A stretch of 56,733 nucleotides of DNA, from positions 1 through 56,733 of the forward strand of contig NZ_AAYC01000021.1 of NCBI RefSeq assembly GCF_000169455.1, read 5' to 3'. The notes beneath the pieces were generated by a model. The model ran no database searches. It was not told the DNA's origin and saw nothing but the letters and a program-made list of their open reading frames with translations. Shown here in pieces: positions 42,558 to 51,925 of the stretch; the stretch's first letter is position 1, and every line of letters begins with the position of its first letter. The translations under genes and the position numbers were made by a program. The DNA is from Roseobacter sp. SK209-2-6. Its GTDB lineage: Bacteria > Pseudomonadota > Alphaproteobacteria > Rhodobacterales > Rhodobacteraceae.

Positions 42558-42789
42558 GTAATCCTCCCTTGAATGTATAACGAGGCGCAGCTCCTCACTT
42601 CTGCGCGACGTCTGCACGATTTGTGCAAAATCAGTATGGGAGGCACTTGTAAAACCACGCAATAAAACCCTTGAATTCATCAACTATTCTGTAAATAAAT
42701 GAACAGATCGTTACAGGGTTTTGTAAATTAGCTTATATTGCGTTGCAGAAAGCCCTTGAAATCGAAAGGTTTTGACTAAGGGGTTTGGA
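42558..42789. promoter_or_regulatory. Divergent control region of the liv unit and the ScfR-like regulator
   Basis: AT-rich region of about 230 bp. It contains TGCAC-GATTT-GTGCA (42613-42627), AAAACCCT (42664-42671) matched by AGGGTTTT (42714-42721), and three direct TGTAAA copies at 42648, 42690 and 42721. The copies are 42 and 31 bp apart, close to four and three helical turns. These are candidate operators for the adjacent regulator; none is a proven consensus. Confidence 0.45.
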
Positions 42790-44085
42790 ATGGGGCGCGA
42801 CACATTAACAGGTAGCCGGATCAGGGAGCGCCGGATGATCCTTGGGTTGCGCCAGGCTGAACTGGCGCGAAAGACCGGGATTTCGGCCTCCTACCTCAAT
42901 CTGATCGAACACAACCGGCGCAGAATCGGTGGCAAACTTCTGGTTGATCTGGCGCAGGTTCTGGGTGTCGAACCCTCGATGTTGTCCGAAGGAGCCGAGG
43001 CCGCATTGGTTGCCTCTCTGCGCGAGGCTGCCGCCGAAAGTGGGACGCCGATGGCGGAACTCGATCGGGTAGAGGAATTCGCAGGCCGCTTTCCCGGCTG
43101 GGCCGAAGTGCTGGCTGGCGGGTATCAGAGGATTGCGCGACTTGAACGCACCGTAGAGGTGCTTTCAGACCGGCTAACCCATGACCCACATCTGGCGGCC
43201 TCGTTGCATGAGGTTCTGTCAACGGCGGCCGCGATCCGCTCCACCGCGTCAATTCTGGCCGAGCCAGGGGAGTTGGAACAGGAATGGCGGGATAGGTTTC
43301 ACAAGAACCTCAATGAAGATTCATTGCGTTTGGCAGAAGGAAGCCGGGCGCTGGTGAGCTTTCTCGATGAAAGCGGTGGAGTGGAAAACCGGCGCGGTGT
43401 GCCCCAGGAGGAGGCGGAAGAGTTCTTCCTTTCACATGGGTTCCACTTCGCAGAACTGGAAGATGGGGGTACGCCAGAGGCCTTGGTAAAGGGAGCTGCG
43501 CATCTGGTCAGTGATGCTTCTCGCCGTATCGCTCTGGCCGCTTTGCAGCAATACCAGCAGGATGCCCGCGCATTGCCATTGGAAGCGGTAGAAGCGGCGC
43601 TACAGGAGGGGGGGCTGGATCCAGCAGCTCTGGCGGCGCGGTTTGATTGCTCTTTGCCACAGGTGCTGCGTCGATTGGCGACACTGCCGCCCTCAATCTT
43701 GGGGCAGGAAAGCGGCCTGGTGGTCTGTGATGCCTCTGGTTCGATCCTGTTTCGCAAACCACTGGAAGGCCTGGCGCTGCCACGCTTTGGTGCCTCATGT
43801 CCGCTTTGGCCGCTCTATGGTGCCTTGCAGCAGCCGGGGGTTCCGATCCGGCGTGCTGTTCTGCAACAAGGGCGCAATCTTCAGGGGTTTGATTGCTACG
43901 CTGTGGCATGGAATCATGCGGCGCCATCCTTTGAGACCACGCCACTTTTCCACGCCGTCATGTTGGTGTTGCCACTGCGCGAGGTGCCGGAAGGAGCCTA
44001 TCCAGTTGGGGCGAGTTGCCGCATCTGCCCAGCCAGGGCTTGTTCCGCACGACGTGAGCCTTCGATATTGAAGGAAGAGTTTTGA
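42790..44085 (+). CDS. XRE-type regulator, ScfR-like, with a HisKA-like helical region
   Basis: A 431-residue DNA-binding protein. Residues 8-62 form an XRE helix-turn-helix (IRERRMILGLRQAELARKTG, SASYLNLIEHNRRRIG). The C-terminal half ends in CRICPARAC, like the Cys motif of short-chain fatty acyl regulators (DUF2083/ScfR, RamB-type). Residues about 130-195 look like a histidine-kinase dimerisation hairpin: LHEVLSTAAAIRSTASIL with His140, then EDSLRLAEGSRALVSFLDE. No ATPase domain follows and no HExxH metal site is seen. AAGGGG six bases before ATG 42790 sets the start. It is divergent from the transporter and precedes a two-component system. Confidence 0.82.
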   Translation: MGRDTLTGSRIRERRMILGLRQAELARKTGISASYLNLIEHNRRRIGGKLLVDLAQVLGVEPSMLSEGAEAALVASLREAAAESGTPMAELDRVEEFAGRFPGWAEVLAGGYQRIARLERTVEVLSDRLTHDPHLAASLHEVLSTAAAIRSTASILAEPGELEQEWRDRFHKNLNEDSLRLAEGSRALVSFLDESGGVENRRGVPQEEAEEFFLSHGFHFAELEDGGTPEALVKGAAHLVSDASRRIALAALQQYQQDARALPLEAVEAALQEGGLDPAALAARFDCSLPQVLRRLATLPPSILGQESGLVVCDASGSILFRKPLEGLALPRFGASCPLWPLYGALQQPGVPIRRAVLQQGRNLQGFDCYAVAWNHAAPSFETTPLFHAVMLVLPLREVPEGAYPVGASCRICPARACSARREPSILKEEF

Positions 44086-44181
44086 CACCGGCACCGTGCG
44101 GGGGCTAGTTTAGATCCATATTGAGAACGCGGGCACCGATACGAAACCCAGGGTGAACCGCGCTTGGAGGAAATTCTGCCG

Positions 44182-44610
44182 ATGAGCAGACATGTAGTTC
44201 TGATCGAGGATGAGCCCAATATCGCTGAAGCCATCCGGTTTCTGCTGATCCGCGATGGTTGGAGTGTCGATGCTCATGGAGATGGTAGTGATGCTGTCGA
44301 AGTCATTGCGGCGGCGCGTCCCGATTTGGTGATCCTGGACCTTATGTTGCCCGGTAAAAGCGGGCTGGAAGTCATACAGGAGCTGAGGGCCCTGGGAGAT
44401 ATGCAGGATTTGCCTGTGCTTATGCTGACCGCACGGGGACAGCTGAAAGACCGGGAAATGGCAGAACGTGCCGGTGTGACCCGCTTTATGACCAAACCCT
44501 TCTCCAATGCCGAGGTATTGACCGCCGTACGCGATTTGCATGCGCAGGCGCATCAGCAGGCTGTTGAGGCCGGTAAGCTGGAAAACGGCGTAGAATCAGC
44601 CAAGTCATGA
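44182..44610 (+). CDS. Single-domain response regulator (CheY-like)
   Basis: Receiver-domain protein of 142 residues. Acidic pocket ED at 9-10, phospho-acceptor Asp53 in LVILDLMLPGKSG, Thr in MLTARGQ and Lys105 in FMTKPFSNAE are all present. No output domain follows; the last 25 residues are a polar helical tail. It probably signals by protein contact. The kinase encoded 400 bp downstream is the obvious partner. The start ATG 44182 lies ten bases after GGAGGA; an upstream TTG at 44164 is less likely. Confidence 0.9.
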   Translation: MSRHVVLIEDEPNIAEAIRFLLIRDGWSVDAHGDGSDAVEVIAAARPDLVILDLMLPGKSGLEVIQELRALGDMQDLPVLMLTARGQLKDREMAERAGVTRFMTKPFSNAEVLTAVRDLHAQAHQQAVEAGKLENGVESAKS

Positions 44611-44667: not shown

Positions 44668-45009
44668 ATGCGCAGTGATGGTGCAGGCCCCCCAGTGGAA
44701 CCTCGCCCGGACGAACCGCAGGGCGCATTTGTAGAGCGGCGGACCTACCGGCGTCGGCGCCTTATGGATGCTGCGCGCTTGCTGCCAATTCTGGGCGCAC
44801 TCTTGCTGGCGGTGCCTCTGTTGTGGCCCAATCCCGATCCTTACCCAGCACCAGATAGCCATGGCGGGATGCCGCTCTCATCGGCCATTGCCTATATCTT
44901 TGTGGTCTGGGGAGGGCTGATCTTTGCCAGTTTTCTGTTTGGCTTGGCGGTGCAGCGCTGGGCAGGGCACTGGACTAAGGGGGCCAGTGGCGAAGAGGGT
45001 AGGAAATGA
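44668..45009 (+). CDS. Small two-helix membrane protein next to the sensor kinase
   Basis: A 113-residue protein I do not recognise. An Arg/Glu/Pro-rich N-terminal tail of about 35 residues (ERRTYRRRRLMD) precedes two hydrophobic helices (about 36-54 and 72-93) joined by a Pro-rich loop (LWPNPDPYPAPDSHGG). It ends in a charged tail. Its stop overlaps the kinase start as ATGA, so the two are co-translated, and it may be an accessory of the symporter-like sensor. Small helper proteins of this type occur beside sodium:solute symporters. Confidence 0.75.
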   Translation: MRSDGAGPPVEPRPDEPQGAFVERRTYRRRRLMDAARLLPILGALLLAVPLLWPNPDPYPAPDSHGGMPLSSAIAYIFVVWGGLIFASFLFGLAVQRWAGHWTKGASGEEGRK

Positions 45010-47696
45010 GCTCCCTCAACCTTCTGGCACTGGTCTGCCTCGGCTATGTGGCCCTGTTGTTCTTTGTCGCCTTTCTGGCAGATCGATATGCGAGCCGTGG
45101 CAAGAGTGCGAAATGGATGCGCTCGCCTTTGATCTATACCCTGTCCCTTTCGATTTATTGTACCGCTTGGACCTTTTACGGCGCGGTTGGCTATGCTGCC
45201 CGCTCGGGGTTGGAGTTCCTGACGATCTACCTGGGGCCCTCCCTGGTCATGGTGGGCTGGTGGTGGGGGCTGCGCAAACTGGTGCGGGTCGGGCGCAGTC
45301 AACGCGTGACCTCTATCGCCGACCTCCTGTCTGCGCGGTATGGTAAATCCAATGCCTTGGCGATCGGGGTGACCCTACTCGCCGTGATCGGCATTACCCC
45401 CTATATCTCTCTGCAGCTGCAATCCATCACCCTGTCCTTTGCAGCCTTTGCAGAGGCGGATCTGCCAAGGGACTATCAGGATACCAAAACCGTCTTCTGG
45501 GTAGCGGCGGGCCTTGCGGTCTTTGCCATCCTCTTTGGGACACGCAACCTCAACGCCAATGAACGTCACCACGGTGTGGTCACCGCAGTTGCGCTAGAGG
45601 CGATTGTAAAGCTCCTTGCCCTGCTGGCTGTTGGTATATTTGTGGTCTGGGGAATTGCCGGTGGGGTGGGCGAAACCCTGATGCGGATCGATGCTTCGCG
45701 GATTGGAGATTGGCGAGTAGACGGGGGACGTTGGGCAACCATCACCTTTTTGGCGGCCGCCGCCTTTGTCTGTCTGCCTCGCATGTTTCAAGTCATGGTG
45801 GTCGAAAATGAGGATGAGCGGCACTTGCGCACCGCGGCCTGGGCTTTTCCGTTTTATCTGATGCTGATTTCGATCTTTGTGGTGCCGATCGCGGTGATCG
45901 GGTTGGAGCTGATGCCCCAAGGAGCCAATCCGGACCTCTTTGTCTTGACCGTGCCATTGTCGCAGGGGCAGCAGGGGCTTGCCATGCTCTCCTTTTTGGG
46001 CGGATTTTCTTCGGCAACCTCCATGGTGATCGTCGCAGCCATGGCCTTGTCGACAATGGTCTCAAACCATATCGTCATGCCCATATGGCTAAGCTTGCAA
46101 GGGGCAGGGGCCTCTGTGTCCGGTGATGTGAGGACTGTTATCCTCCTGTCGCGCCGCATTTCCATCGCAGCCATCATGGCGCTGGGCTATTTCTACTTTA
46201 CCATGTCCGGAGGCGGAGCAGCACTTGCGGCCATTGGTTTGATCTCATTTGCCGGTATTGCGCAGATGTTGCCTGCTCTTGTTGGCGGGCTATTCTGGCG
46301 CGGGGCGACCCGCAGTGGGGCCTTGGCAGGGCTGACCACGGGATTTGCGCTCTGGGTTTATACCATGCTGCTGCCGGCCCTGGGCGGCGGGGTGTTGCCG
46401 GATCAGATCCTGGCAGATGGGCTCTTTGGGCTGTCCTGGCTGCGCCCACATGCGCTTTTTGGCATCGAGGGGATGGATTCCACTGTCCATGCGGTTCTTT
46501 GGTCCATGAGCCTCAATGCCGGGGTGTTCTGCCTGGTTTCGCTGATCACTTTCCCAAGTCCGATCGAGCGCCTGCAGGGGGCGCAGTTCGTGCATGTCTT
46601 TGATCACTCCGCCGGGCCACGGGGCTGGACCGGGTCCATTGCCCAGAGCGAGGATCTGATGGTGATGACCCAGCGCATTCTCGGAGCCACCGAGGCGCAG
46701 GCCTTTTTCCAGCGCGAACAAGCGCGACAGGGCGGGCGGGGCACCCTGCCAGAACCAACGCCTGAATTCCTAGAACGGCTGGAGCGAGAGCTTGGGGCCT
46801 CCATCGGTGCTGCCGCTGCCCATGCGATGATTGGCCAGATCGTTGGGGGATCTTCGGTTTCGGTTCAGGATTTGATGGCCGTTGCGGATGAAACCGCTCA
46901 GATGCTGGAGCATTCCAGCCAGTTGGAAAAGCAATCGGCAGAACTTTCCAGAACAGCGCGGAAACTGCGGGAAACCAATGAGAAGCTGACACAAATCTCT
47001 GAGCAGAAGGATGCCTTCCTCAGTCAGGTCAGCCATGAGCTGCGCACGCCCATGACCTCTATCCGGGCTTTTTCGGAGATCTTGCGTGACGATGCGGAAC
47101 TGCCACCAGAGGACAAAAGCCGCTATGCCGGGATCATCCATGATGAAGCGCTGCGTCTGACACGTCTTTTGAATGATCTTCTGGATCTGAGTGTGCTGGA
47201 AAGTGGTCAGGTGCATCTCAACCTGGGATCTGGGAATCTTATGGATGTTCTCGACCATGCGGTCTCCACCGCTTTGGCGGGGAACGGGCGGACACTGAAG
47301 GTTCTGCGCGATGTTCAGAACGAAGATCTGATGATCTTCTCCGATCTCGATCGGCTGTCGCAGGTTTTCATCAATCTGATTGCCAATGCGCAGAAGTACT
47401 GCGATGCGGAAGTTCCTACATTGAGGATCTCGGTCAGCGAAGGTCAGAAGGAATTCTTCATCCAGTTCAGCGACAATGGCAGTGGTATTCCAGCAGAATT
47501 TCAGCAGTTGATTTTTGAGAAATTTTCCCGCGTTAGTCCGGAACGTGCCGGCGGAGCAGGGCTTGGCCTCGCCATCTGTCGCGAGATCATGCAGCGCCTT
47601 GACGGGGATGTTTTTTATCAACCTGGCGTCGAGGGGTGCTGCTTCTGTATTTCTTTGCCGAAACCTCGGAAAATTGCTGGTGTCGCGGCCATTTAA
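45006..47696 (+). CDS. Sensor histidine kinase with sodium:solute symporter sensor domain (CbrA/CrbS-like)
   Basis: Inner-membrane kinase of 896 residues. Residues 1-530 are an SLC5-like domain of about 13 helices, with IYCTAWTFYGAVGYAARSG near 50-68 and FLGGFSSATSMVIVAAMALS near 330-349, as in CbrA and CrbS. A linker and coiled coil (SSQLEKQSAELSRTARKLRE) lead to HisKA with His677 in SQVSHELRTPMTSIRAFSEI and a HATPase with NLIANAQKY (N box), FSDNGSGIP (G1) and GGAGLGLAICREI (G2). CrbS-type systems control acetate use; CbrA controls carbon/nitrogen balance. No PAS or receiver domain is present, so the upstream CheY-like protein is the likely phosphate acceptor. Confidence 0.92.
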   Translation: MSSLNLLALVCLGYVALLFFVAFLADRYASRGKSAKWMRSPLIYTLSLSIYCTAWTFYGAVGYAARSGLEFLTIYLGPSLVMVGWWWGLRKLVRVGRSQRVTSIADLLSARYGKSNALAIGVTLLAVIGITPYISLQLQSITLSFAAFAEADLPRDYQDTKTVFWVAAGLAVFAILFGTRNLNANERHHGVVTAVALEAIVKLLALLAVGIFVVWGIAGGVGETLMRIDASRIGDWRVDGGRWATITFLAAAAFVCLPRMFQVMVVENEDERHLRTAAWAFPFYLMLISIFVVPIAVIGLELMPQGANPDLFVLTVPLSQGQQGLAMLSFLGGFSSATSMVIVAAMALSTMVSNHIVMPIWLSLQGAGASVSGDVRTVILLSRRISIAAIMALGYFYFTMSGGGAALAAIGLISFAGIAQMLPALVGGLFWRGATRSGALAGLTTGFALWVYTMLLPALGGGVLPDQILADGLFGLSWLRPHALFGIEGMDSTVHAVLWSMSLNAGVFCLVSLITFPSPIERLQGAQFVHVFDHSAGPRGWTGSIAQSEDLMVMTQRILGATEAQAFFQREQARQGGRGTLPEPTPEFLERLERELGASIGAAAAHAMIGQIVGGSSVSVQDLMAVADETAQMLEHSSQLEKQSAELSRTARKLRETNEKLTQISEQKDAFLSQVSHELRTPMTSIRAFSEILRDDAELPPEDKSRYAGIIHDEALRLTRLLNDLLDLSVLESGQVHLNLGSGNLMDVLDHAVSTALAGNGRTLKVLRDVQNEDLMIFSDLDRLSQVFINLIANAQKYCDAEVPTLRISVSEGQKEFFIQFSDNGSGIPAEFQQLIFEKFSRVSPERAGGAGLGLAICREIMQRLDGDVFYQPGVEGCCFCISLPKPRKIAGVAAI

Positions 47697-47764
47697 AGAT
47701 CTTGGTAACCAACGGCCGGTAAGACATTGGAAAAGGGAGCGCGCAAAGTGCAGGTTGATGACTA

Positions 47765-49141
47765 ATGTCTGAAGCGGAAACAGATCAGGCCGGGGGCAGC
47801 AAGATTAGTGGGCTGGCCCGCAAACTGGCTGTGTCTAAAGAAGGGAAAGGGGCTTCGAATGGCTCGTTTACCCTCAAGGTTCTGCGCCGCTCTTTTGCGC
47901 GCGCGGCCTCAGAGCTTTGCGACCTGCCTCTTGCGGTTCTTGCGGGACGTCAATCAAACCGCGCGCCTGAAGAACTCTCTGATCTTCTTTCCGACCAGCA
48001 TCTGTTGATTGTCCTAGATGGCCCGGACGGGCGTGTTGGTGCAGCCACCATGGATGCGGCCCTGGTCACAGCCTTGATCCAGAAGCAGACCATTGGTCAG
48101 ATCATGGGGAAAGCGCCTTCAGAGCGGAATTACACCCCAACAGATGCGGCGATGACCGCAGGCTTTCTTGAATTGTCCTTTGAAAAAGTGCTGGGTCTTT
48201 TGGATGGTCAGGCCGACCAGACACTTTTTAAAGGCTATCGATTTGGGGCTCAGATCGACAGTGTGCGTAACCTCGTACTTGGGTTGGAGGCCGAAGATTA
48301 CAGGTTGATTTCTATGACCGTGGATATCGCTCTTGGCACGATGCAGGGCAGCATCAACCTTCTCCTGCCCGAACCAACGCCAGAGGAACTGGGCCTCGCT
48401 GGGGCGGCTGCAGGGCCTTCACTTGGGAGCAGCATGGGCAATCTTCGCGCGGAACTCTCCGCGGTTCTTTGCAAAATGCGCCTGCCTCTGAATGAATTGT
48501 CGAACTTGAAACCGGGGGATGTGATCCCCCTGGAGCAAGCCTTTCTCTATGAGACGGATCTGATCAGCATTGGTGGTCAATCGATTGCGCAGGGCAAACT
48601 GGGTCAAATGAACGGTTCGCGCGCGGTGCGTTTGAACGAAAGCCAGACCAAACTGGTGCAGGATGTCGGTGGCGGTGCCTTTGCTGATGGTGTGAACGGC
48701 GATGCACCCGCGCTCCCTGCGATGGATGATGGTCCAACCCTTGATCTAGGTATTGCGGCTCAGGGTCTGCAAGATCCGCTGGATGACGGCATGGGCATGC
48801 CCGCTATGGATATGGGCGGGCTAGGCGGCGATCTGGGAGGTGACCTAGGTGGTGATTTGGGCGGTGATCTAGGGGGCGACTTGGGTGGTGGCCTTGGTGG
48901 AGATCTCGGCGGCGATCTTGGCGCGGATCTCGGTGCCGACCTTGGCATGGGTCTTGGCGGTGACCTAGGTGGGGATCTGGGTGGCGGCTTGCCACTGGAT
49001 GGCGCTCCTATGGGAGAGCTTCCAGCGCTTGGCGACGGCTTGGGTGATCTTGGAGCAACTGCACTGGATGGCGGCGATGCGCTGGATCAGTTCAATCCAG
49101 ATGATGCCGCAGCGGAAATAAGTAAGCTTGCTGGTCTGTAA
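47765..49141 (+). CDS. Orphan FliM/FliN-like protein with a Gly-Gly-Asp-Leu repeat tail
   Basis: A 458-residue protein with a FliM-like middle region (about 35-215: FTLKVLRRSFARAASELCDL, NYTPTDAAMTAGFLELSFEK) and a SpoA/FliN-type domain (about 224-295: MRLPLNELSNLKPGDVIPLE). The CheY-binding EIDALL motif of true FliM is missing at the N-terminus. Residues 354-409 are 14 tetrapeptide units of consensus GGDL, then an Asp/Gly-rich end. No flagellar genes are nearby. Annotated relatives in roseobacters are called FliM/FliN family motor proteins. It may be a real C-ring component placed away from its operon or a paralogue with a new task. Confidence 0.85.
   Translation: MSEAETDQAGGSKISGLARKLAVSKEGKGASNGSFTLKVLRRSFARAASELCDLPLAVLAGRQSNRAPEELSDLLSDQHLLIVLDGPDGRVGAATMDAALVTALIQKQTIGQIMGKAPSERNYTPTDAAMTAGFLELSFEKVLGLLDGQADQTLFKGYRFGAQIDSVRNLVLGLEAEDYRLISMTVDIALGTMQGSINLLLPEPTPEELGLAGAAAGPSLGSSMGNLRAELSAVLCKMRLPLNELSNLKPGDVIPLEQAFLYETDLISIGGQSIAQGKLGQMNGSRAVRLNESQTKLVQDVGGGAFADGVNGDAPALPAMDDGPTLDLGIAAQGLQDPLDDGMGMPAMDMGGLGGDLGGDLGGDLGGDLGGDLGGGLGGDLGGDLGADLGADLGMGLGGDLGGDLGGGLPLDGAPMGELPALGDGLGDLGATALDGGDALDQFNPDDAAAEISKLAGL
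48824..48991 (+). repeat. 14 tandem 12-bp units coding for (Gly-Gly-Asp-Leu)n
   Basis: Fourteen consecutive 12-bp units in perfect register, ten of them coding a plain or near-plain GGDL and the rest GGGL, GADL or GMGL. Almost every unit differs from its neighbours at silent positions (Leu as ctg, cta, ttg, ctc, ctt; Asp as gat or gac), so the protein motif rather than the DNA is conserved. Confidence 0.95.
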
Positions 49142-49378: not shown

Positions 49379-49804
49379 TTACTGCGACGCGATGGCTTCC
49401 AGTGTCGGGCGCAGCCCATCAAGCTGATAGCCAGCTGCACTGGTTTTGGTGAGAATCTCATCAACAGACAGTTCACTGGCCATGCCTAGCGACCAAACCA
49501 CCGAGCAGCGTGTCCCAGATGCGCAATAGGCCAAAACTGGGCCCTCACATTCCTCATAAAACCGGCGCTGGAGCGCGACATTTTCTGGTGTCATTGTTTG
49601 ATGTGTCAGGGGCAACTCTTTGAAAGTAAGCCCGGATTCCTCGACAGCCACGCGAATGGCTGCAGCCTGGTGGCTAGGCGGCACTTCGGCATCAGGACGG
49701 TTGCAAATCACCGTCTTGAAGCCAGCTTCGACAATGGCAGGCAAGTCTTCAACCGAGATCTGCGGTGAGACGGCGTAGCGGGGGGTGATCTCTTTAGCAT
49801 CCAT
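49379..49804 (-). CDS. TIGR01244/DUF442 sulfur-transferase-like phosphatase domain protein
   Basis: A 141-residue protein of the beta-lactamase-hydrolase-like N-domain family, which has a protein-tyrosine-phosphatase-like fold. The P-loop is YCASGTRCS with Cys and Arg in C-x5-R near 94-99; other marks are VICNRPDAEVPPSHQA and LPLTHQTMTP. In Blh this domain is fused to a persulfide dioxygenase; here the dioxygenase is a separate gene of the same operon. Probably a sulfurtransferase acting on persulfides. Last gene of the unit, 10 bp after the second YeeE gene. Confidence 0.88.
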   Translation of the reverse strand: MDAKEITPRYAVSPQISVEDLPAIVEAGFKTVICNRPDAEVPPSHQAAAIRVAVEESGLTFKELPLTHQTMTPENVALQRRFYEECEGPVLAYCASGTRCSVVWSLGMASELSVDEILTKTSAAGYQLDGLRPTLEAIASQ

Positions 49805-49814
49805 GACAATCCCT

Positions 49815-50249
49815 TTAAACGCTTGTCGCGATCCGGTCTAGTTTCTCGCCAGCCTTGGGTGCAATTAGCATGCCAGCCAGCATTGCGGCCAGGAACACCA
49901 ACCCACCTGTCCCACCATAGCTGAGGGAGGCAATCGCCGGCCCCGGGCAAAGCCCGGCGAGCCCCCAGCCCATGCCAAAGAGAACCGAACCGGTGATCAG
50001 GCGATGATCCATTTCGGGGGCAGGTGGGGTGGGGAAATTTCCACCAACCAGCGGCCGCGTTTTGCGGCTTAGCTGCCAGGCCAGCGCCATCGGTATGATC
50101 GCTCCGCCCATGACAAAGGCCAGCGTTGGATCCCAGTTGCCAAAGACATCCAACCAGCCCTGCACCTTGGTCGTGTCGGTCATGCCTGAGAGGAAAAGCC
50201 CGCTCCCAAAGAGCGCACCTGAGAGCAAAGAGAGGAACAGGCGCATCAT
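49815..50249 (-). CDS. YeeE/YedE (DUF395) membrane protein, second copy
   Basis: Half-size YeeE/YedE protein of 144 residues with about four helices, of the family that imports thiosulfate or other sulfur compounds. Marks are FGSGLFLSGMTDTTKVQGWL near 14-33 and GMGWGLAGLCPGPAIASL near 97 with the conserved Cys. The start shares one base with the upstream stop (TGATG), so translation is coupled. It probably pairs with the upstream YeeE protein to make one full transporter. Confidence 0.87.
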   Translation of the reverse strand: MMRLFLSLLSGALFGSGLFLSGMTDTTKVQGWLDVFGNWDPTLAFVMGGAIIPMALAWQLSRKTRPLVGGNFPTPPAPEMDHRLITGSVLFGMGWGLAGLCPGPAIASLSYGGTGGLVFLAAMLAGMLIAPKAGEKLDRIATSV

Positions 50250-50677
50250 CAGATCAATCCTAGGCCATGGCGCAAAATGGCCAGGGTCAGGCCCCCGGCC
50301 AGTATGTAGAAAACGGTTGCGACGAGGCCGCGCAGAGACAGGCGTGAGATCCCGCAAACCCCATGACCAGAGGTGCAGCCATTGGCGATACGCGTCCCCA
50401 TCCCGACGAGGACACCGGCGCCAGCCACCAACCAGAGATTGGGGGTCAGATGCGTTTCCACAGGGGTTTGCGTGACCAGCAAAAACAGCAATGGGGCACC
50501 AAAAAGACCCAGCAGAAATACCAGGCGCTCGGCCAGGTTCCCTTTGCCACTGCCATCAACCAGGCCGCCAATGATCCCGCTGGCGCCCATGATCCGACCA
50601 TTGCCAAGCAAAAAGACCGCACCAGCCAAACCAATAAAGCCCCCTCCAACGAGGCCCCAGATCCAATCTGTTTCCAT
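50249..50677 (-). CDS. YeeE/YedE (DUF395) membrane protein, first copy
   Basis: Half-size YeeE/YedE protein of 142 residues, about four helices. The conserved Cys motif is GCTSGHGVCGISRLSLRG near 99-116, and NGRIMGASGIIGG near 26 is also typical. AAGGAAA eight bases before the ATG at 50677 sets the start. It lies 69 bp after the dioxygenase gene and is coupled to the second YeeE gene. Confidence 0.88.
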   Translation of the reverse strand: METDWIWGLVGGGFIGLAGAVFLLGNGRIMGASGIIGGLVDGSGKGNLAERLVFLLGLFGAPLLFLLVTQTPVETHLTPNLWLVAGAGVLVGMGTRIANGCTSGHGVCGISRLSLRGLVATVFYILAGGLTLAILRHGLGLI

Positions 50678-50746
50678 TGTTCGCGTTTCCTTAGGTTTGT
50701 TTTCGCCTCTGGGGACACGTGCCAGCACCCATGTCACAAGAGGCGC

Positions 50747-51610
50747 TTAGAGCTTGTTGACAGGAAGTTTGAGGAAGACATCCCCCTTGGCATCGGGCTC
50801 TGGCATCTGTCCTGCGCGCATATTGACCTGCAGCGAAGGCAGGATCAGGCGTGGCATGCCCAGTGTTGCATCGCGCGCATCCCGCATAGAGGTAAACTCC
50901 TCAATGCTCTTGCCCTGTCCGATGTGGACATTCAGCGCTTTTTGTTCCCCAACCGTGGTCTCCCAGGCATAGTCATTGCGTCCCGGTGCCTTGTAGTCAT
51001 GTCCGACATAGATGCGGGTTTCATTTGGCAGGGTCAGAATGCGCTGGATCGACTGATAAAGATCAGAAGAGGAGCCGCCGGGGAAGTCGCAGCGGGCGGT
51101 GCCAAAATCGGGCATGAACAGGGTGTCACCCACAAAGGCCGCATCACCAATAACATAGGTGAGACAGGCGGGTGTGTGGCCCGGTGTATGCAGGACCTTG
51201 CCCTGCATCTGTCCGATCATGAAACTGTCGCCATCCTTGAAAAGTGCATCAAACTGGCTGCCATCACGCTGAAAGGCCGTGCCTTCGTTGAAGACCTTGC
51301 CAAAGGTCTCTTGGATCACGGTGATCTGTTCGCCAATGCCGATTTTGCCGCCCAGCTGCTCTTGCAGGTAGGGCGCGGCAGAGAGGTGATCCGCATGGAC
51401 ATGGCTCTCCAGGATCCAGACGCATTGCAGGCCCTGTGCACGAACCCAATTGGCGATCTCATCCGCTGAACTGGTATCGGTTCGCCCAGAGGCGTGGTCA
51501 AAATCCAGCACGGAATCGATGATTGCACAGTTTCCCCCTTCAGGTTCACTGACAACATAAGAAACTGTGTTGGTGGCTTCATCAAAGAAGGCTTTGACCT
51601 TTGGCTGCAT
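50747..51610 (-). CDS. Metallo-beta-lactamase-fold persulfide dioxygenase-like protein
   Basis: MBL-fold protein of 287 residues resembling ETHE1 and the catalytic domain of Blh, which oxidise glutathione persulfide to sulfite. Metal ligands are in HVHADHLSA near 69, TPGHTPACLTYVIGD near 140 with the second His, VGDTLFMPDFGTARCDFPGG near 156-175 and YVGHDYKAPGR near 204. The C-terminal extension (GMPRLILPSLQVNMRAGQMP) is typical of Blh. Start ATG 51610 is chosen; the frame is open to 51667. First gene of the sulfur operon, with an inverted repeat about 30 bp upstream. Confidence 0.9.
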   Translation of the reverse strand: MQPKVKAFFDEATNTVSYVVSEPEGGNCAIIDSVLDFDHASGRTDTSSADEIANWVRAQGLQCVWILESHVHADHLSAAPYLQEQLGGKIGIGEQITVIQETFGKVFNEGTAFQRDGSQFDALFKDGDSFMIGQMQGKVLHTPGHTPACLTYVIGDAAFVGDTLFMPDFGTARCDFPGGSSSDLYQSIQRILTLPNETRIYVGHDYKAPGRNDYAWETTVGEQKALNVHIGQGKSIEEFTSMRDARDATLGMPRLILPSLQVNMRAGQMPEPDAKGDVFLKLPVNKL

Positions 51611-51925
51611 CTGTGGCGCTCCATTCCCTTTCCGAACAACATATACAAAGGAATGAATGTGTTTCAAGACCCGCGATACGGAGATCGTATCGGCGGCGGC
51701 TTGAACAGGGGAGGTCTTTCCTCTGGCAGTTGTAAATTGACCTGTCTCAAGGCGCTATGCAGTCAGATCGCTTAGCTTTTGTGCAGGCGTTGCATTTGGT
51801 CCAGAACTCATGAGATTTTTTGATAATTTACTGAGCTAGGCCTGCAAGGCGGCGCTAATTTGGGTCCAGTTTACAATGGTGTTGCAATGGTCTGGCAACA
51901 CAGTGCCGGAAAGGGAGGTGTCAGG
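51611..51925. promoter_or_regulatory. Divergent region with inverted repeat upstream of the sulfur operon
   Basis: About 315 bp without a gene. AACATATACA (51638-51647) and TGAATGTGTT (51654-51663) form an imperfect inverted repeat, 8 of 10 positions, around AAGGAA, 28 bp before the first start codon. Persulfide-sensing ArsR-type repressors (BigR, SqrR) bind such places in related operons. No regulator gene is next to it. Nothing else stands out. Confidence 0.35.

Follow-up and report, generated by a model that had tools for sequence, protein, structure and literature searches.

FliM of the flagellar motor is encoded in the window, a stretch of 56,733 nucleotides from Roseobacter sp. SK209-2-6 (contig NZ_AAYC01000021.1), by a gene on the forward strand (47765..49141) that begins with ATG. 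The product is a divergent FliM of 458 residues with a C-terminal tail, assigned from a SpoA match and from the alignment of a family profile with E. coli FliM. Upstream on the same strand lie an ScfR/RamB-like HTH regulator (42772..44085; Pfam ScfRs above cut-off), a receiver-only response regulator with a PhoB-type receiver and no output domain (44164..44610; Pfam and profile comparison), a small protein of 113 residues with two membrane-spanning stretches by reading that is a conserved member of the block (44668..45009), and a membrane histidine kinase (45006..47696). The kinase contains HisKA and HATPase_c domains by Pfam, and its N-terminal part matches the solved histidine kinase chain 10ed_A. 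A promoter-like element, TAAAG-N6-GTAACC, is located between the kinase stop and the fliM start (47694..47710, forward strand) and overlaps the kinase stop codon here. After fliM come convergent genes on the reverse strand (49379-51667) that by reading look like a sulfur-handling group.

Relatives of the FliM core are present in 229 of 295 family genomes, with a single match in 221 of the 229. From these 229 genomes, 80 family loci were hand-picked among the better-scoring listed matches that had room for flanks, and near relatives are over-represented among them. Together with eight named loci and the window they make up 89 loci, nine of which (the window and L004-L011) are close kin. The split gene L106 is left out of the 88-row alignment, and the 81-row tree also omits the near-duplicates L005, L007, L008, L009, and L011 as well as L092 and L102; this tree of cores was made by a quick method, and its support values are SH-aLRT only. 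At L106 (G137:C4:193084-193942), fliM is apparently split into two overlapping frames, either by a frameshift or by an error. The family genome search misses some divergent FliMs, such as the one behind the kinase at L162 (7583-8534), which the first search overlooked, so counts of FliM-less genomes are upper bounds.

The body of the window protein retains the two central parts of FliM in divergent form. Pfam matches one domain only, SpoA/FliMN_C (PF01052), at residues 226-292 (48440..48640, forward strand) with 55.2 bits against a cut-off of 23.8, in agreement with the earlier note on this DNA, and the same domain is matched in 81 of 81 aligned relatives (E ≤ 0.1). The FliM-like middle proposed in that note is upheld by profile comparison but not by Pfam. 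Aligned to E. coli K-12 FliM by hhalign (probability 95.4, E 1.8e-8), a profile built from the 81 relatives covers the middle and SpoA parts (columns 53-278; 213 columns aligned) and places the middle-domain region at about residues 69-205 (47969..48379, forward strand), with the loop TIGQIMGKAPS aligned to GGXG. The Pfam model of the FliM middle, PF02154, has zero matches anywhere in the strain's own genome at E ≤ 1 and matches weakly in 2 of the 81 aligned relatives. The curated NCBIfam FliM model TIGR01397 scores the protein at 36.6 bits, far below its cut-off of 219.6. A PDB search with the 81-relative profile returned FliM chains, matched through the SpoA part, and a search with a nine-sequence profile returned a single match, an unrelated repetitive protein at E 0.14. 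An AlphaFold2 model from nine sequences has a mean pLDDT of 33, which makes it unusable, and supports neither disorder in the tail nor a helix at its end. Judged by its sequence, the window FliM is far diverged from canonical FliM.

The strain's assembly measures 4.55 Mb in 29 contigs, with a completeness estimate of 100, and contains two SpoA genes: the window FliM and a 118-residue FliN that sits in a cluster read as fliF-fliH-fliN-fliP. There is one FliG gene, on another contig. Searches with SpoA and PF02154 found no second FliM candidate in the assembly; this flagellated genome holds a single gene each of the FliM, FliG, and FliN types. Across a hand-picked set, all 36 genomes have a strong FliG match, and one of them (G092) also has a second, weak match. 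The window gene is most likely the only FliM of the motor, with an ordinary role and an unusual body, and that it is the sole working FliM can be held with near certainty.

RSP6099 (del Campo et al. 2007) is taken here to be the Fla2 FliM of Rhodobacter/Cereibacter sphaeroides and, presumably, the FliM of an ancestral flagellum within the same order. Separate placing of fliM and fliG recurs in relatives. In R. sphaeroides, the accessible text describes the Fla2 fliM and fliG as "located elsewhere in chromosome I", outside the cluster (PMC7277832), as are fliM and fliG of the present genome, and the portion of PMC6473078 consulted places the two genes separately in D. shibae. The accessible part of a 2025 study of the fla1-type flagellum of P. 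inhibens names fliG among the motility genes that lie outside the cluster (PMC12363192). Its table of non-motile mutants includes fliG and no fliM; fliN is also unhit, genes outside the cluster were counted only with at least two mutants, and fliM occurs once in the main text, in the reference list. As far as these parts of the paper go, the missing fliM is silence rather than contradiction. For Sulfitobacter D7, the sections available report high FliM expression under every treatment and no differential expression, whereas most flagellar genes are differential (PMC9873259).

The N-terminus of the window FliM lacks the EIDALL motif, as the earlier note observed, and none of the 88 aligned Rhodobacteraceae FliMs, the window protein included, has an EIDALL-like motif. 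By comparison, N-terminal EID(S/T)LLG occurs in 30 of 30 control FliMs from other alphaproteobacterial families (25 in one count, and the 5 longest ORFs in another). These controls are the 30 best-scoring FliMs of the 40 genomes over the model cut-off among 76 searched and, having been chosen with the FliM model, are canonical by choice. Where other alphaproteobacterial FliMs have EIDSLLG, the window protein has an L.RK-type motif (LARKL, residues 17-21; 47813..47827, forward strand). The crude L.RK-type pattern, applied without a chance control, occurs in 80 of 88 aligned relatives, and its lysine is nearly invariant across the 81 rows.

The GGXG loop of FliM and the EHPQ motif of FliG are presumed here to be the FliG-FliM contact motifs. 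GGXG is absent from the window FliM and found in 3 of 88 relatives, but the crude pattern finds just 12 of the 30 controls, so its absence carries little weight. EHPQ of E. coli FliG occurs in 0 of 28 aligned family FliGs (L124-L151, that is, 28 of 30 fetched loci with L152 and L153 left out); in its place, 25 of the 28 carry ES(T/I)E and the other three ESAE, EATE, and ESPE. The window FliM is like canonical FliM (E. coli b1945; TIGR01397, PF02154 plus PF01052) in its middle and SpoA parts and in being encoded once, as FliG and FliN also are, and unlike it in lacking N-terminal EIDALL and GGXG and in scoring below both curated cut-offs. According to the accessible text of PMC9126983, the FliM and FliY proteins of every motile bacterium carry EIDALL. 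The FliM of Caulobacter, which is alphaproteobacterial like the window FliM, uses a short N-terminal peptide (I57 D58) for CheY/Cle according to the available part of PMC7534056; the window FliM has no such N-terminal peptide and instead carries a different short conserved motif at its C-terminus.

The C-terminal tail of the window FliM is a 166-residue acidic extension with a net charge of -29 (48641..49138, forward strand), at a place where E. coli FliM has 16 residues after the aligned part. That C-ring proteins end at or near the SpoA domain, as previously supposed, is correct for canonical FliM, whose 28 measurable controls out of 30 run on for just 3-15 residues past the match, but not for the Rhodobacteraceae family. 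Tails beyond SpoA range from 9 to 166 residues in the 88 aligned relatives, with a median of 97.5, and their net charge is -5 or lower in 74 of the 88. A comparison of tails in homologues, as the earlier note had advised, shows that close relatives do have tails and that the window tail is no one-off. Tail length in the nearest nine sequences is 136-166 residues despite differing repeat units, and an alignment shows the block LDLGIAAQGLQDPLDDGMG (residues 326-344; 48740..48796, forward strand) to be kept in the nearest clade. GGDL/GADL repeats are present in that clade only; elsewhere the tail contains acidic arrays of another kind, LPDLPDLP or GLPPLGDGG, or there is hardly any tail. The acidic tail is a family trait, and the repeat type is lineage-specific.

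The repeat array of the window protein (residues 354-409; 48824..48991, forward strand) contains exactly 14 tetrapeptides of the GGDL type, the number and position first read from the sequence. Unit comparison gives nine copies of GGDL, two each of GGGL and GADL, and one of GMGL, with Gly at position 1 and Leu at position 4 invariant in all 14, and Tandem Repeats Finder reports the array with scores of 60, 112, and 129. All 14 twelve-base units differ from one another in DNA, and comparison between units yields pS = 0.82 and pN = 0.13, a ratio of 0.16. The array units are under purifying selection, and these values together with 14 distinct DNA units mean that the array is no fresh slippage product, which bears out the earlier claim that differences at silent sites mark a selected peptide. 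RTX calcium-binding repeats are nonapeptides of the form GGxGxDxUx. The array, with its period of 4, is not of this form.

The end of the tail carries a conserved motif, DQFNPDDAAAEISKLAGL (residues 441-458; 49085..49138, forward strand), within which EISKLAGL occupies 49115-49138; its consensus in one clade is EI(S/T)xLAGL. The search pattern [EQA][IVL][STCG].LAG[LF], in which L, A, and G are fixed, matched 37 of 89 loci. Within the matched motifs Ile occurs in 37 of 37 and Glu in 35 of 37, although the pattern allowed alternatives, and the stretch is invariant in the nearest nine sequences in an alignment built without the pattern. The motif is present in 31 of 33 rows of one tree group (SH-aLRT 97), the two exceptions being L057 and L071, and in 0 of 48 other rows. 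Since 50 of the 81 tree rows have no end motif, their motors must work without it. The motif forms the chain terminus in the window protein and is followed by 4-42 residues elsewhere. A search for a second copy in the strain's own genome gave one further DNA match, near the start of an unrelated 110-residue frame, which was discarded. The arrays are read here as spacers and the end motif as the part that is kept.

The explanation favored overall, and held to be somewhat probable, is that the window gene encodes the sole FliM of an ancestral (fla1-type) motor whose acidic tail acts as a tether with a docking end. Comparison with other FliMs shows that the protein keeps the middle and SpoA body without the EIDALL peptide and the GGXG loop, and that its long acidic tail is of low complexity and rich in G, P, D, and L. 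The tail would be a disordered tether in which repeat type and length have drifted from one lineage to the next, with the GGDL array serving as a spacer, and a flexible tether is its probable nature. In the clade of the window, the tail may end in a conserved short helix, EIS.LAGL, on which a C-ring partner or a receiver-type regulator could dock; chances are even that the end motif serves as such a docking peptide.

The upstream genes suggest a different emphasis, in which the kinase phosphorylates the receiver-only regulator, which in turn docks on FliM through the tail or through L.RK and alters how the motor behaves, providing a CheA-independent input; this is a possible but somewhat unlikely account. 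At 83 of 89 loci the kinase, the receiver, and the small protein all precede fliM on its own strand, and the ScfR-like regulator is also upstream in 80 of the 89. Six loci have no kinase, one of which (L113) is cut by a contig end and was counted as lacking it. The kinase-receiver block is upstream in 37 of 37 motif-bearing loci. Among the 295 genomes, 219 have both FliM and kinase, 10 FliM only, 43 kinase only, and 23 neither (Fisher p 6e-10, kinship ignored), and the corresponding counts among CheW-less genomes are 99, 5, 29, and 16, kinship again ignored. The receiver retains Asp53 and Lys105 in 83 of 83 loci and Thr83 in 82 of 83; its stop-to-stop frame is long in 3 of the 83 (278, 329, and 634). 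The existence of 104 FliM-bearing genomes without CheW, among 229, also favors an input independent of CheA. The fixed linkage of fliM with a kinase and a receiver-only regulator is the strongest new lead of the analysis.

Several observations speak against this kinase-to-FliM input. Of the 66 genomes that lack a FliM match, 43 contain the kinase, and the whole block is kept in 12 of 12 examined loci from such genomes, one of which (L162) carries a divergent FliM; the block thus has a life of its own. The receiver is also conserved to much the same degree in loci that lack the tail motif. It is closest to PhoB/OmpR-type (PhoB/YycF) receivers rather than CheY and is separated from fliM by the kinase, so that the earlier description of fliM as following a kinase and a CheY-like regulator applies to the presence of the two genes but not to the type of the receiver or the immediate order. 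The hinted tie between nutrient sensing and the motor fares similarly: the gene linkage is stronger than the note could tell, but the block also occurs apart from a FliM match and fliM has its own promoter-like element, so a direct functional link is no more than possible.

The promoter-like element takes the 16-bp form TAAAG-N6-GTAAC in 38 of 88 loci, nine of which are the window and its close kin. Its spacing is always the same, though the pattern allowed 4-7, and the chance rate is 0.05% of shuffles that keep base composition only. A weaker gTTAnAC follows it. With the final C, the element occurs once in the strain's own genome, and a backward-read control pattern occurs twice. No sigma-70-type match was found, and the spacing of the element does not exactly fit the CtrA site TTAA-N7-TTAA, the TAA starts being 12 rather than 11 bases apart. 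The element looks like a promoter or a regulator site, and with such a conserved element of its own, fliM can probably be switched apart from the kinase.

As in CrbS/CbrA-type kinases, which have a fused solute-symporter domain, the window kinase is a membrane-domain kinase beside a short-chain acid type regulator, as far as the accessible descriptions of those systems go; here, however, the regulator paired with the kinase lacks a DNA-binding domain, and the next gene is fliM. A symporter-type fold for the membrane part of the window kinase is a reading to which Pfam gave no support. The literature outside subscription papers, as far as its accessible text extends, yielded nothing on a kinase-fliM link or on FliM tails. 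In the kinase search, rows G231, G142, G177, G129, G257, and G109 have one or two stop codons counted inside the kinase match; the kinase frames of G177 (L163) and G109 (L167) are open over 920 and 894 codons, which may place the stops at the border of the match. A relative of the ORF at 49379-49804 is found opposite the kinase strand in 6 of the 12 loci that lack a FliM match (L156, L157, L158, L160, L161, and L164).

The end motif could also be a relocated CheY dock, in which N-terminal EIDSLLG(F) was lost and its function re-created at EIS.LAGL for binding of CheY-P from the CheA pathway; this is doubtful. The motif EID(S/T)LLG is universal among the controls and missing throughout the family, and two CheW-domain genes are present in the strain's own genome, one of them of CheA size. 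EISELAGL and EIDSLLGF line up without gaps at a score of 18, which 179 of 20,000 shuffles of the 18-residue consensus reach; among the 6,844 8-mers from six-frame ORFs of the window, one reaches 18, and by our own scoring it is the motif itself. When gaps are allowed, however, 3,888 of 20,000 shuffles reach the score and the resemblance is not significant. The distribution of CheW also disagrees with that of the motif. Among 81 genomes scored, 29 carry the motif and 17 of these lack any CheW-domain protein, although such absence may be false in incomplete genomes, and 16 of these 17 have FlhA, the exception being an 83%-complete genome. Conversely, 33 of 45 CheW-bearing genomes scored have no end motif, and on the tree the motif changes 3 times against 19 changes for CheW. 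Because the motif is kept in CheW-less genomes, it does not fit a role limited to docking CheY phosphorylated by CheA, and the simple view that EIDALL was transferred to the C-terminus to serve the CheA pathway is weakened by this and by the non-significant gapped comparison. The 104 FliM-bearing genomes without a CheW-domain match appear to be flagellated but to lack the CheA/CheW pathway.

Neutral drift of low-complexity sequence would make the tail a tolerated expansion without function and the gene order inherited baggage. Some members of the family are nearly tailless, with a minimum of 9 residues and about a dozen below 35, and array types appear and vanish: the presence of at least three (D/E)LP units changes 13 times on the tree of 81 cores, whose branches are long throughout. 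The purifying selection between array units, the prevailing negative charge of the tails, their similar length in close relatives, and the near-constant end motif in one tree group all run counter to drift, which is likewise an unlikely explanation.

Alternatively, sticky arms rich in G, D, L, M, and P at the FliM C-terminus, the FliG N-terminus, and the FliF linker could touch each other and so hold a rewritten C-ring together, which is improbable. The FliG N-terminus of the strain's own genome and of near relatives is similar in make-up, with L127 (the FliG of G075) reading GGMDFGGDLGGGDLGMGG, and the cytoplasmic linker of the strain's own FliF (L001 2365-3096) reads GDLPGGLPELPAM...GGMGGLPALGGG. 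The presumed contact motifs have changed on both sides, although the crude GGXG pattern misses most canonical controls. The likeness is one of composition only, seen in the strain's own genome and near relatives and, for FliF, in the strain's own genome alone, and more distant FliG arms differ. The specialised paralogue of the earlier note, which might have been the switch protein of a secretion-type system or of a second motor, is very improbable despite the orphan location, the divergent sequence, and a weak match to an SctQ-type model (28.5 bits, cut-off 100.8), and is rejected here: the second, canonical fliM that the note itself proposed to look for was sought and not found, and nearly all family genomes with a match have just one.

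The tethered sole FliM remains the preferred reading, and the gene can join the list for the fla1-type motor. The lack of EIDALL in 88 of 88 family FliMs and of CheW in 104 of 229 FliM-bearing genomes raises the question of what steers these motors. The constant placing of fliM behind a kinase and a receiver-only regulator provides a direct, testable candidate for steering. A tentative and rather unlikely proposal is that the Rhodobacteraceae motor has a second, CheA-independent input, in which a nutrient-type membrane kinase and its receiver-only partner, sharing a gene block with fliM, act directly on a FliM that has exchanged the classical CheY dock for new docking elements, N-terminal L.RK and, in one clade, C-terminal EIS.LAGL on an acidic tether. 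If this is true, FliM-bearing genomes without CheW, nearly half of the total, would rely chiefly on the kinase-receiver input for steering.
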